A stretch of DNA of 63,128 nt from an uncultured Nitrospira sp. Its GTDB lineage: Bacteria > Nitrospirota > Nitrospiria > Nitrospirales > Nitrospiraceae. How positions within the stretch are numbered: the stretch's first letter is position 1; each line of letters opens with the position of its first letter. The notes beneath the pieces were generated by a model. It was not told the origin of the DNA and made no database searches. It saw nothing but the letters and a program-made list of their open reading frames with translations. The DNA is taken from assembly GCA_902500825.1 (NCBI GenBank), contig CABVRX010000021.1, positions 1 to 63,128 on the forward strand. Direction: 5' to 3'. Shown piece by piece: positions 58,255 through 63,128 of this stretch. The position numbers and the translations under genes were made by a program.

Positions 58255-58396
58255 AACCGTTAACCTCCATTTACGTAATCGATGTCCGAGACCTCTGAGA
58301 AACGACAACGACGCTTCACTCAAAACAAACCGGGAGCCATTCCAGCATGCCGTTTTGCACATTGTCAATCGATCGAATCTGGCACGACACCTGCGT

Positions 58397-59005
58397 ATGC
58401 GACATGCCATGAGCTTGCGCCTAAGATCCATTACAGCTACAGCTTGGTTACTCATCGGCTGGATGCTTGTCGCGTCACCACCCGATGCCTCGGCAGAGTC
58501 TCTGCAGAAATCCGATCTCGGCTCCACCCTCAACCAGCAATGTGATCTCTGCTGGTATCCGTCGCCGAATGACCAAGACTCGGATCGCCTCCCGACATAC
58601 AAGCAACCTCGGCACCGACGTCCGCCGGACAGTCGACCACAGCGCTATCCCAAAGGACGTTACAAACTGGGGCCCACGCACAAGCAGTCGCGACTCTCCA
58701 CGCTTCGAACCCGTTCGAGGCACGAGATGAAGGTGCTGAGCACGTTCCAAGTGCGCGTGGTCGATGGCGATACAATTCGTCTTGGAGGTGAACGGATCAG
58801 ACTCCGTGGGATCGACACACCCGAGTTGAGTGAGCCACAAGGTCCGTCAGCCAAGCAACGGCTGGAAGAGCTCTTGCGCAGCGGCTCGATCCGCATCGTG
58901 CCCCACGGCCGGGATGTCTACAATCGACTCCTGGCCGATGTGTTTGTGAACGAACAGGACGTAGCGGAGATTCTTCGAAGTGAAGGATTTTCGAAAGCAG
59001 GATAG
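58397..59005 (+). CDS. Secreted thermonuclease-family (SNase) protein
   Basis: About 202 residues: a signal peptide (TAWLLIGWMLVASPPDASA), a ~80-residue Arg/Pro-rich spacer with a Cys pair (CDLCWYP), then an SNase/TNase OB-fold domain. VVDGDTIRLGGERIRLRGID holds the calcium-site Asp and catalytic Arg, TPELSEPQG the catalytic Glu, and RDVYNRLLADVFV the second Arg. The calcium-dependent nuclease fold looks complete but lacks the usual C-terminal helix extension. Starts at 58397 or 58409 (ATG) are both possible; none has a clear ribosome binding site. A secreted nuclease close to a secreted RNase is notable. Confidence 0.82.
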   Translation: MRHAMSLRLRSITATAWLLIGWMLVASPPDASAESLQKSDLGSTLNQQCDLCWYPSPNDQDSDRLPTYKQPRHRRPPDSRPQRYPKGRYKLGPTHKQSRLSTLRTRSRHEMKVLSTFQVRVVDGDTIRLGGERIRLRGIDTPELSEPQGPSAKQRLEELLRSGSIRIVPHGRDVYNRLLADVFVNEQDVAEILRSEGFSKAG

Positions 59006-59070: not shown

Positions 59071-59379
59071 ATGAAATCTGTCACCCGAGGCAAAAACAGC
59101 CCTGCGGTAAAAGTCACAAACATCTCCAAACATGGACTCTGGCTGATTACAAGATCCGATGAGCTCTTTGTTTCGTTCAACGAATTCCCCTGTTTCCAAA
59201 ATGCTTCCGTCTCTAAGATCATGAATATCGAATGGTCTAACGCCGACTACCTGTATTGGCCGGATCTTGATGTAGATCTCGCTGTCGAATCCATCAGACG
59301 CTTCCCGCTCGTGTCGAAAGAGTTGAGCCTGGCAAAGCGTCCCCGCCAACGGGCCAAGGCAAAGATCGTAAGCGAATGA
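59071..59379 (+). CDS. DUF2442 domain protein
   Basis: A 102-residue protein with the DUF2442 fold signature: NISKHGLWLITRSDELFVSF, then NEFPCFQNASVSKIMNIE, and the closing YWPDLDVDLAVESI. DUF2442 proteins often pair with DUF4160 in toxin-antitoxin-like two-gene units; here no DUF4160 gene stands on either side, so this is an orphan. AGGAG precedes ATG 59071 by seven bases. It lies 65 bases after the thermonuclease gene, in the same direction, and may be co-transcribed. Confidence 0.85.
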   Translation: MKSVTRGKNSPAVKVTNISKHGLWLITRSDELFVSFNEFPCFQNASVSKIMNIEWSNADYLYWPDLDVDLAVESIRRFPLVSKELSLAKRPRQRAKAKIVSE

Positions 59380-59914
59380 CTCCTTTTACCGGCCCGCATG
59401 TCTTCTCCCATCTACTTGCTTCTGCCCTTGAGCGCTTTCCTGTGGGTCTGTATTAAGGCTCAGTCCTCCAACATCCTCTGCATCCAATCCGATCCACCCG
59501 GAATCCATTCAGATACAGATGCACGCTGTCCAACTTCGAAGCACATCATTCAGGTTGTTGAAATACCAGGTTTTCTGCTTTGAATGCGTGCGGCACAAGA
59601 GATGCGTTCGTGACGACCAGAATGTCGCGGAGACGTTGATGCAGGAGAGATATGAAAAGTGGTCGCCATAGGGAGTCTCATCGCATAGCACTGGGGCACG
59701 ACTGGTAAAGCTACCACACCGTACAAGCAACATAGCTCCAAGCGGGATAAGTCCATTGTTCCTTAGCCGTAAGACGAATAGATGAATCCGGTCGAGGTAC
59801 TACTGTTTGCACCGAAAAAGTCTTTGCAACGAAGGGTCGAGCCGATCTATGAGCCCTGCAATACCAGCGCAACCCCATAGTGTCGGAAACTCAATTTCCT
59901 GAAAGGAGATTGCC
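59380..59914. other. Intergenic stretch before the copper-oxidase genes
   Basis: 535 bases without a supported gene. Frames such as 59398-59583 (+) and 59509-59733 (-) are short, without ribosome binding sites or recognisable domains. The last bases hold GAAAGGAGATT, the ribosome binding site of the multicopper oxidase. The promoter was not recognisable. Confidence 0.5.
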
Positions 59915-61957
59915 ATGGCCACAATCGAATACTGGATCCAGTTGGAAAACCGTCCGTGGGACACATCGCCCCACAACATCGACCGGATAACCGGGATGGA
60001 CATGAAGGAAACCACGGGAAAAGACCCAATAGATGTGACCCTCAAATCGCCCGGGACGGGAGTGACGACAACGCGCAAGATGTTTAACCCTCTCCGCGAC
60101 AGCGACGGGAAGGTTAAGGACGCGCTCATTCTCCGTCGATACAAACCTCCCACGCAACAGGACCAGAGCGACGCCTGGACCATACCCGACGACCGCAAGG
60201 TGAACCCCTGGGACCTGAACGAGCCGGACCCGACGGATACCGGCACGATGGGCACGATTCCAGGTCCCGTCATCGAGTGCAACGTCGGCGACTCGGTGAT
60301 CGTCCACTTCCGCAACTTGGACATGCGCACGCACCTCGTAACGAAGCAAATCTGCATCGACTTTCCCTTTCCCTTTGGCGGCAACAACAAGATTTGTTTT
60401 CCATTCCCTGTCGCTGAGCCGATCGAAATCGAGAAGCGCGTGCACAGCCTCCATCCGCACGGGTTTGTCTTCAAGGCCAATTCGGACGGTGCCTATCCGC
60501 TTTCGCCGCCTGACGCGGCTCAGCCGATAGCAGGTACTCCGGGTCCGGACGAGACTACCTTTTGGGCGACCGTACCGGGATTTTTGGGAACCCGGAAGAA
60601 AGGTGATCGCGTGCCCCCGGGCGGGACGTTCATCTATCACTGGAACACGATCGGGTGGCCCTCCACATCCAATGTTTGGCTCTTTCACGACCACTCCATC
60701 TGCGACATGGAGAATGTTGAGTTAGGAGCCATTGGGATCATCGTGATCCATAACCCGGCCGACACTGAACAGGAAGTTGATATTCGAGCAGGCGATCCTA
60801 ATGATCCGAGTAAGCTCGACCCCGCGTTCCTACCGGACGGATCACCAAACGGCAGCCCCACCAATCTTACATGCTTCCCGTTCCCGGGAATCGATTTCCG
60901 TGTTCTCCCGCACGACCTGGAAGGGTTGGGTCTCCGTCACGACGATGTCCCTGGCCACGGTCACGCGGCTTTGCCTGGCACCCCTCAACCCGTGCCTACG
61001 GTCGGGAAGAAACCGCACAAGGAGGATGCGGAAGGCAGAAAGCCCGTCTTAGAGCGAATGATCAAGCGCGGTGATTTTCTGTTCGAACTCGACGAGAAGC
61101 TTGAGGTGATCAAGCAGCTATGCCTGCGGCGATACGACACTCCTCCGTCCAAGGCCCTCTATCTTCAGCTCTTCCACACGCTCGACGGTGTGCCGAGCAT
61201 GATGATCAACGGACGCACATTCATGGGCAATACGCCTACAATGGTCGCCGGTCGGGGGACGCGGATGAGGTTCGGCGTCGTGGGCATGGGCAACAGCGGG
61301 AGTGGCATCCACACGTTCCACCTTCATGGGCACCGGTGGATAGTGCCCGGTCCTCAGGGGAACACGCCGGGCACTATCCAAGGTAGCGCGCAGGTCCAAC
61401 CCGTCTCACAGTTCGAGGATACCCGCCTCTTCGGTCCGGCAAACTCCTTCGTCTTCACGATTGATGGACAGTCCAGCAGCTTCATGCGGGCGGGCGGGCC
61501 GAGCCCCGATGACTCGGTCGGTGAGTGGCACATGCACTGCCATGTCTTGGACCACATGATGATGGGCATGATGGGGTCTCTTCTCATCGTCAAGGGCGGC
61601 GAATTCGCGTCCGTTCTGCCCAGGGGCGTGCCGTGCGCGCATGATGATGGAGGCGGGCACGAAGAGCCTCCCGAAAACGGCGGCGCGACCCATCAGGTCA
61701 GCATCGAAAACGCCAGCAACGACGGATTTGTACCCAAGGTTATGAACATCAACGTCGGCGACACCGTTACCTGGAAGAACAACGACAGCCAGACCCACAC
61801 CGCGAGCAAGACCGGCGGCCCCGGCCTCAACTTCGACACGGGCAACATCGCCGCAGGAGCCACCTCGGCTCCGGTAACCTTCAATACCGCTGGCACGATG
61901 ACGTACCGGTGCAACATTCACACCAACATGACCGGCACAATCCAGGTTAACCCGTAA
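59915..61957 (+). CDS. Multicopper oxidase with C-terminal cupredoxin domain
   Basis: A 680-residue protein. Copper motifs in order: HSLHPHG (177-183), FHDHS (257-261), HTFHLHGHRW (about 469-478) and WHMHCHVLDHMM (about 535-546), together giving the trinuclear centre and type 1 site with Met as axial ligand. Residues about 595-680 add a plastocyanin-like domain (DTVTWKNNDSQTHTAS, YRCNIHTNM) with its own His-Cys-His-Met type 1 site. No Sec or Tat signal is visible: the protein starts MATIEYWIQL, odd for this family. AAAGGAG precedes the ATG by seven bases. A copper radical oxidase gene follows. Substrate unknown (laccase-, bilirubin- or metal-oxidase types are possible). Confidence 0.92.
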   Translation: MATIEYWIQLENRPWDTSPHNIDRITGMDMKETTGKDPIDVTLKSPGTGVTTTRKMFNPLRDSDGKVKDALILRRYKPPTQQDQSDAWTIPDDRKVNPWDLNEPDPTDTGTMGTIPGPVIECNVGDSVIVHFRNLDMRTHLVTKQICIDFPFPFGGNNKICFPFPVAEPIEIEKRVHSLHPHGFVFKANSDGAYPLSPPDAAQPIAGTPGPDETTFWATVPGFLGTRKKGDRVPPGGTFIYHWNTIGWPSTSNVWLFHDHSICDMENVELGAIGIIVIHNPADTEQEVDIRAGDPNDPSKLDPAFLPDGSPNGSPTNLTCFPFPGIDFRVLPHDLEGLGLRHDDVPGHGHAALPGTPQPVPTVGKKPHKEDAEGRKPVLERMIKRGDFLFELDEKLEVIKQLCLRRYDTPPSKALYLQLFHTLDGVPSMMINGRTFMGNTPTMVAGRGTRMRFGVVGMGNSGSGIHTFHLHGHRWIVPGPQGNTPGTIQGSAQVQPVSQFEDTRLFGPANSFVFTIDGQSSSFMRAGGPSPDDSVGEWHMHCHVLDHMMMGMMGSLLIVKGGEFASVLPRGVPCAHDDGGGHEEPPENGGATHQVSIENASNDGFVPKVMNINVGDTVTWKNNDSQTHTASKTGGPGLNFDTGNIAAGATSAPVTFNTAGTMTYRCNIHTNMTGTIQVNP

Positions 61958-62226
61958 GCCCTAACGAAAAGGCAGAAATAGCAAAGCCATGGGAAATGCA
62001 AGAAAAGGAGAGAATAAACAAAAGGGACGCAGGAAGGAAACTGAGGTGAAAGGCAGGTTTCTGATCGATAGAAAACCCGTTCGTAGCCTGCTTCGATTTT
62101 GCAGTAGCCCTTGAACTCCGGATGGTCTTGCATATGTGCCATTGAGCGAGATCGAACAAGGAGACGCTGAAACGTCTCAATAGTGGCATGGCGAATACCA
62201 CATGGCTCAGTGAAAGGAGATCAGTC

Positions 62227-63128
62227 ATGGCAAAAGCTCCCAAACGAAATCAGAGTAAGGGCAAGGTAAGCCCATCGAAAGAGGCCGAGACTGCAAATCT
62301 AACCGGGAAGATTGATGTTCACACCCAGGAGCGCGTTCTCCGCTTCGTCAACACAGCCCGGGTACCGACGGATCTGACAGTGCTGCCCCACGACCTCCGC
62401 GTCGTCGATGAGGCGTCCGCCCACATGGGGGACATCCCACACCATGTAGAGCAGAGACGCACCCTGGACATCAAGACCGCGATGCGGATCATGAAGGCGC
62501 GCCGCGAGGCCAACCTGCTCCACGGTTTTGTCGCCATCAAAGACTTGGTCGTCATTGATCGGCACATCCTGGACATTTTTTTCAGTGCCTTCGGCCCCGC
62601 CACATATGGACGCTGGGACTATCTGTATGACATGGAAGCAGGGGGCGTTGAGCTCTCCATTGAGCACGCGGCCTTATTGCGCACAGGCGAGGTCGTGTTC
62701 ATCGAGAGCGGCACGGATACCATCCTCTGGAATCCGGCCGATGAAGTGACTCCGCAGTTCACCACCATTCCTGGTTCCACTACGGGCCTGACCGCGGATC
62801 TCTTCTGCTCCGGGCATGCTTTCCTATCTGATGGGAAATTATTGGTGGTGGGCGGTGGTGGTGGTGGACCTGGGGCAGCCACCTCGAACCAGGGCTGGCG
62901 CTTCGATCCGGTGCTGCGCACCTGGACACGCACGGGCGACATGACGACCAGACGGTGGTACCCGACAGCGCTGATGCTGGGTGACGAGCAGGGACCCACG
63001 GGAGCGTGCGCACGCGTCCTCGTGGTCGGTGGTTCCGGTGGCACCGGCGGTATGGAAGTATACTCGGAAGCTACCAACGCCTTCCTGCCGATCACCGTGA
63101 ACGGCGTGATCACGAAGCACTTCAACCA
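62227..63128 (+). CDS. Galactose/glyoxal-oxidase-like copper radical oxidase (5' part)
   Basis: Open from ATG 62227 to the window end (300 codons visible, no stop). Kelch-type beta-propeller repeats appear as LLRTGEVVFIESG, FLSDGKLLVVGGG and RVLVVGGSGG. The cofactor residues of galactose oxidase are recognisable: Cys194 in DLFCSG (cf. DMFCPG) and Tyr245 in RRWYPTAL, which would form the thioether-linked Tyr-Cys radical site. Known reaction: oxidation of alcohols or aldehydes with O2 to give H2O2. The N-terminus MAKAPKRNQSKGKV is basic without a signal peptide. AAAGGAGAT precedes ATG. The 269-base gap to the oxidase upstream holds only a GAGACG/CGTCTC stem (62161-62178). Confidence 0.85.
   Translation, partial: MAKAPKRNQSKGKVSPSKEAETANLTGKIDVHTQERVLRFVNTARVPTDLTVLPHDLRVVDEASAHMGDIPHHVEQRRTLDIKTAMRIMKARREANLLHGFVAIKDLVVIDRHILDIFFSAFGPATYGRWDYLYDMEAGGVELSIEHAALLRTGEVVFIESGTDTILWNPADEVTPQFTTIPGSTTGLTADLFCSGHAFLSDGKLLVVGGGGGGPGAATSNQGWRFDPVLRTWTRTGDMTTRRWYPTALMLGDEQGPTGACARVLVVGGSGGTGGMEVYSEATNAFLPITVNGVITKHFN

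Follow-up and report, generated by a model that had tools for sequence, protein, structure and literature searches.

Two copper oxidase genes at the end of the window (the whole 63,128-nt stretch of DNA analyzed here) are well supported, by comparison with related genomes, as a horizontally acquired two-gene unit in an insertion hotspot between an SNase-domain gene and a patatin gene. The pairing of a laccase-type multicopper oxidase (MCO) with a copper radical oxidase (CRO) is likewise well supported, and the two enzymes probably work together. More tentatively, we read the unit as a transferred two-enzyme oxidation cassette in which the MCO, by re-oxidizing the CRO, would switch it back to the radical form in which it is active.

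The two oxidases and their genes

The features of the pair, in window coordinates unless contig C19 is named, are as follows.

59902–59910, + strand: ribosome-binding site of the MCO gene, AAAGGAGAT
59915–61957, + strand: MCO gene, 680 aa, ATG at 59915, no signal peptide
Within 59915–61957: MCO copper ligands H180, H182, H258, H260, H466, H469, H471, H541, C542, H543, H547 and M552
61685–61954, + strand: C-terminal plastocyanin/amicyanin-like domain of the MCO, aa 591–680, type 1 copper motif C666-x2-H669-x2-M672
61958–62226, + strand: intergenic gap between the MCO and CRO genes, 269 bp
62213–62221, + strand: ribosome-binding site of the CRO gene, AAAGGAGAT
62227–63128, + strand: CRO gene, first 300 of 626 aa; the rest lies on contig C19, reverse strand, with the stop near C19:70980
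62806–62808, + strand: codon of CRO Cys194, the cross-linking Cys of the Tyr-Cys cofactor by alignment, in an LFCSGH motif
62956–62961, + strand: codons of CRO Trp244-Tyr245, the stacking Trp and cross-linked Tyr, of the GlxA type RWYPT

Chance open reading frames were ruled out for both genes by Pfam matches above cut-off and conserved motifs, and the earlier note's description of a tandem MCO and CRO, made from the letters alone, was borne out for both families, with intact active sites. In the MCO all copper motifs were found (HPHG180, HDH258, HTFHLHG466 and HMHCHVLDHMMMGM539), and the histidine and cysteine ligands, including the type 1 cysteine, are complete and unchanged across five aligned proteins. 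Pfam Cu-oxidase_2 scored 50.7 bits (cut-off 20.4), while the plastocyanin domain, on which the earlier note is silent, was recognized by Pfam PF00127 Copper-bind (27.3 bits, cut-off 21.2) and also by amicyanin and plastocyanin PDB chains. In the comparison with two-domain laccases, no middle Cu-oxidase domain was detected, but the protein has 680 aa and a further cupredoxin domain. Scores against the CueO, CopA and ascorbate oxidase equivalogs were 14–21 bits, below the curated cut-offs of 445–615. AlphaFold models of the MCO (pLDDT 34) and of one of the fusion proteins described below (pLDDT 36) were unusable.

The contig stops within the CRO gene. The end of the window (assembly G000, contig C21) equals the reversed end of contig C19 over an exact 55 nt, an overlap unique in the genome, and the join completes the CRO to 626 aa and adds a GO-like E-set domain, so that a broken or partial CRO was ruled out. 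In the part inside the window, whose last codon ends at 63126, Kelch motifs scored above cut-off and Glyoxal_oxid_N weakly; the joined protein gave 54.2 bits for Kelch_6, over its cut-off, and 67.1 bits for GO-like_E_set (cut-off 25). Alignment with GlxA (4unm) and other non-fused CROs showed that the active-site residues Cys194, Trp244-Tyr245, Tyr469-His470 and His566 are retained, the Tyr-Cys pair (C194, Y245) being encoded inside the window and the axial Tyr/His/His on C19. Judged by these residues, the Cys-Tyr/Tyr/His/His site is complete and the protein is a GlxA-type copper radical oxidase, with the cross-link bond predicted. It scored 186.3 bits against the GlxA equivalog NF052501, below the curated cut-off of 800. 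Its N-terminal 125 aa had no Pfam match, and within the plasmid set only the Variovorax CRO was related in this region.

The two genes are codirectional, MCO first, and a scan of the + strand found no terminator-like site in the gap between them. The similarity of the ribosome-binding sites, already remarked on in the earlier note, extends to TGAAAGGAGAT upstream of both ATGs, and the core AAAGGAGAT occurs in ~75 kb, both strands, in these two copies only. The claimed lack of Sec or Tat signals also stood. Within the first 70 residues of the MCO and the CRO the maximum 12-residue Kyte-Doolittle values were 0.39 and 0.58, respectively, versus 3.12 in a signal-bearing control, and neither protein has a Tat motif; the absence of signal peptides thus rests on a hydropathy test, not on SignalP. 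The CRO starts with the ATG at 62227, with an alternative in-frame ATG upstream at 62188. An upstream start supplying a signal peptide was ruled out for both genes: a stop four codons before the MCO ATG makes a longer MCO N-terminus impossible, and nothing hydrophobic is encoded from 62188. Type I secretion or anchoring genes, which the earlier note had proposed as possible neighbors, were not recognized in ~20 kb around the pair.

Insertion between the SNase and patatin genes

The pair sits between SNase and patatin genes, and the site carries the following further features.

58355–59005, + strand: SNase-domain gene (Pfam SNase), left border of the insertion site
59071–59379, + strand: DUF2442 gene between the SNase gene and the pair; in G010 likewise between SNase and patatin
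59601–59659, + strand: SNase 3'-end remnant before the MCO gene, 59 bp
C19:70795–70884: partner SNase 3' remnant, 96 bp past the CRO stop, a 90-bp match to the 3' end of the intact SNase gene at 82% identity

Three relatives (G010, G028 and G034) share the hemL-SNase-patatin order with no MCO or CRO in between and so display the empty site. In G029 and G086 the corresponding place is occupied by a CRO of a different clade, lying between SNase 3' copies, and in G075 a CRO of this same type lies between SNase remnants with patatin behind. No integrase was seen at the SNase-patatin site. The third-position G+C content (GC3) of the MCO and CRO genes is 0.73, compared with 0.62 ± 0.05 for 44 neighbors, which places both at the 98th percentile. 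The empty site, the SNase repeats and the raised GC3 together speak for insertion by transfer at a hotspot, as do the absence from 195 other relatives and the fact that the nearest relatives are found in other phyla. The transfer suspected in the earlier note is therefore supported, whereas the comparison of codon usage with the flanks that it proposed gave a divided answer, GC3 being raised and the overall codon preference of both genes being ordinary.

In the three same-genus genomes that have this unrelated CRO at the corresponding place, the SNase 3'-end direct repeats around it lie at L031, 405–560 and 4201–4797; L034, 6035–6244 and 9821–10537; and L033, 1–74 and 3658–3801. The CRO of L031 (724–4095, − strand) carries a His-rich C-terminal tail, GHGHDHPQDQDHDHDGGHH, which may perhaps serve copper loading.

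Fusion proteins and other genomic settings

The exact MCO-CRO tandem was not found in any other genome searched. The MCO is absent from 195 other relatives, and among 392 planctomycetes it was found solely in an already-known Fimbriiglobus MAG; a pattern scan that covered 84,980 genomes and could pick up only close relatives returned this same MAG as the one MCO relative. The Fimbriiglobus protein (JANXWE010000049.1, L007) is 64% identical to the window MCO over its full length and, like it, lacks a signal peptide and has a C-terminal cupredoxin. Unlike in the window, its 6-kb contig holds no CRO, and the CRO-like domain of the MAG belongs to an MCO-CRO fusion encoded on a different contig.

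Such single-chain proteins, combining an MCO, a cupredoxin and a CRO-like domain, were found in three genomes.

L029, 1788–4904, − strand: fusion of 1038 aa, in a genome of the window's genus
L021, 7082–10261, − strand: fusion of 1059 aa, in the Fimbriiglobus MAG (planctomycete), 71% identical to L029
L051, 1–3057: fusion of 1018 aa, in another genome of the window's phylum, 93% complete and 1% contaminated

The L029 genome is rated 6% contaminated; the remaining genes and the G+C content of the contig match the genus by eye. All fusions share the domain order Cu-oxidase_3, cupredoxin, Cu-oxidase_2, Kelch and E-set, and the two with a visible start have no signal peptide. Phylogenetic analysis of 20 CROs placed the fusion CRO domains in a separate clade (100/100), and a single clade of the window CRO and the fusions was rejected (p-AU 2.5e-5). 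It follows that the MCO and CRO families were joined at least twice, and the fusions were ruled out as direct ancestors of the window CRO. The window MCO shares mainly motifs with the fusion MCOs (24–29% identity). A cupredoxin accompanies the MCO in the tandem and in the fused design, at different places. The earlier note had counted a lack of conserved linkage in other genomes against its proposal, and the outcome was mixed: the exact tandem recurs nowhere else, while linkage of the two families recurs as the three fusion proteins.

In each of the three fusions Ser stands in for the cross-linking Cys and Phe for the stacking Trp, whereas the Tyr, the Tyr-His and the His are kept; in non-fused CROs the Cys is kept in 19/20 aligned sequences and gapped in 1/20. 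Because of the change from Cys to Ser, the fused CRO-like domain is perhaps altered or inactive, and maybe no radical oxidase. Loss of the Tyr-Cys pair in close homologues had been named in the earlier note as evidence against its proposal. The closest CRO, that of Variovorax, retains the pair; its loss in the fusions makes activation less convincing where the two enzymes are fused. On sequence grounds the fusions support an MCO-CRO partnership, but they lend no support to Tyr-Cys chemistry in the fused proteins.

Among plasmid and same-genus CROs, most had no MCO within the 5–8 kb inspected, which ruled out MCO-CRO linkage as a bacterial rule and makes the MCO one among several types of CRO partner. 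The others include SCO chaperone genes, beside CROs of four plasmids; a DyP peroxidase, close to a single CRO; and a tyrosinase with a copper amine oxidase, in Variovorax. In Haliscomenobacter an MCO, a copper ATPase and a CRO lie together. Within 7.5 kb on a Sinorhizobium meliloti plasmid lie an MCO, a CRO and a small protein, cupredoxin-like by eye but unmatched in Pfam, a looser association in which an IS110 remnant separates the MCO from the CRO. We found no published description of a bacterial MCO-CRO pair or fusion in the open-access literature.

Several further loci were recorded in passing. The S. meliloti cluster, unannotated on pRRI128_2 (L057, 1645–9043), comprises an animal-type haem peroxidase fragment, the MCO, a small secreted protein, an unknown protein and the CRO, with the IS110 remnant before the CRO. 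On a Gloeothece plasmid (L083, 6396–14191) the 4 kb that follow a CRO contain a Dyp-type peroxidase and a GMC oxidoreductase. Signal-less proteins in which FG-GAP-like repeats, Pfam-tested in L023 only, are fused to a CRO occur at five loci (L023, L025, L026, L027 and L028) from four same-genus genomes, with two copies in G012. The Variovorax sp. WDL1 plasmid (L006, 3025–9788) encodes in tandem a tyrosinase with FG-GAP repeats, a copper amine oxidase and a CRO, none with a clear signal peptide.

Possible function and comparison with known systems

CROs lapse from the radical form and depend on a one-electron oxidant to regain it; in fungi this activator is a peroxidase encoded in tandem with the CRO, as EPR has shown (PMC9770985). 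Glyoxal oxidase is reactivated by HRP with ABTS, methyl syringate or Mn(II) (PMC10928124). In the mechanism that we tentatively prefer, the CRO would oxidize an alcohol or aldehyde, producing H2O2, and drift to its inactive non-radical state; the MCO, reducing O2 to water while accepting single electrons, would then restore the Cu(II)-radical state. The route from MCO to CRO could be direct, via the tethered cupredoxin, or could run through diffusible radicals or Mn(III) made by the MCO. Laccase-type enzymes are likewise able to make the oxidized forms of ABTS, methyl syringate and Mn(II). With its tethered type 1 copper domain, the MCO would thereby take the place of the peroxidase with no need for haem or H2O2.

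Joint action is suggested by the two intact active sites, by the position of the genome's sole CRO beside an MCO (one of five MCO matches in that genome), by the fusions and by the cupredoxin in both designs. Several points speak against activation in particular. The Ser of the fusions, the uniqueness of the exact tandem and the lack of a nearby MCO at most of the bacterial CRO loci examined would all count against it; the signal-less MCO and CRO would start in the cytoplasm, which is poor in free copper; and the type 1 potential of the MCO may be too low. That the two genes are chance neighbors, carried jointly into the hotspot with no shared function, seems quite unlikely. Such a reading would fit the uniqueness of the pair, the other CRO that occupies the hotspot in G029, G086 and G075, and the IS110 remnant in S. 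meliloti, but it sits poorly with independent fusions of the same two families and with the likeness of the two genes in ribosome-binding site and GC3; a random gene would, by estimate, fall beside one of the five MCOs among ~3,700 genes in roughly 0.3% of cases.

A shared substrate pathway, which we regard as possible though somewhat unlikely, would have the MCO act on phenols or a polymer and the CRO on the released alcohols or aldehydes while supplying H2O2, so that a cell-surface or environmental polymer is cross-linked or broken. GlxA, which acts in glycan deposition (PMC9040799), and the cellulose-like glycan of Streptomyces offer a comparison, and the Variovorax partners are oxidases of phenols and amines; the cassette, however, contains no gene for polymer synthesis or degradation, and a single-chain fusion would be less necessary for such a role. 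Copper handling offers another route to joint action. Formation of the Tyr-Cys link involves copper and O2, and the MCO could oxidize Cu(I) to Cu(II) and help to load or mature the CRO in place of an SCO chaperone. No SCO gene was recognized beside the window CRO, in keeping with such a replacement, and Sco matures GlxA (PMC9040799); the Haliscomenobacter cluster with its copper ATPase also fits. Against it, a CueO-like Met-rich copper-binding segment was not recognized in the MCO by eye, and the MCO scores nowhere near the CueO or CopA cut-offs; we consider this role unlikely. A far-reaching extension of the activation reading, which we hold to be very unlikely, is that bacteria assembled self-activating copper oxidases from an MCO, a CRO and a cupredoxin acting as the wire, once in the form of a mobile gene pair and, in separate events, within one polypeptide; under continuous oxidation by the MCO the fused form would have given up the Tyr-Cys link, leaving a plain tyrosine radical and intramolecular electron transfer to O2.

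To maintain CROs in the radical state, fungi encode a haem peroxidase alongside them. For bacteria the pair, together with the fusions of both families, offers a directly testable copper-only answer, and a partnership so far known as fungal peroxidase plus oxidase is now worth testing in bacteria. The Cys-less fusions bear on the need for the Tyr-Cys link when the oxidant is tethered. The pair and the fusions would also be ready two-enzyme or one-chain catalysts for oxidizing aldehydes and alcohols, where progress is now held back because peroxidase has to be added.

Among proteins of solved structure, the MCO core comes closest to two-domain (small) laccases such as PDB 8aip and 4w1t, which share its HxH motifs and align well in the last domain only. 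These laccases are trimers of ~300 aa with two cupredoxin domains, whereas the MCO has 680 aa, long insertions, a C-terminal plastocyanin domain and no signal peptide. GlxA of Streptomyces lividans is among the best solved relatives of the CRO: the Kelch propeller and E-set (PDB 4unm, 5lqi) are common to both by sequence, and the Cys, Trp-Tyr, Tyr-His and His align. The stacking Trp of GlxA adjoins the cross-linked Tyr (PMC13094651), the same arrangement as in the CRO. Unlike GlxA, the CRO has no signal peptide and its own 125-aa N-terminal region, and no CslA was recognized alongside. The sister of the window CRO in the tree (100/99-100) is WP_083944591.1 of the Variovorax sp. WDL1 plasmid, 41% identical over 97%, which has an N-terminal region of the same kind, every active-site residue and no signal peptide; its neighbors are the tyrosinase with FG-GAP repeats and the copper amine oxidase, where the window CRO has the MCO. 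In the tandem peroxidase-alcohol oxidase of Colletotrichum and Magnaporthe a CRO gene adjoins the gene of a one-electron oxidant, as it does across 269 bp in the window; the fungal partner is a class II haem peroxidase, with head-to-head genes and both proteins secreted (PMC9770985), whereas the window encodes an MCO, codirectionally and with no signal peptides. If the MCO does activate the CRO, the pair would be the haem-free bacterial counterpart of this fungal tandem.
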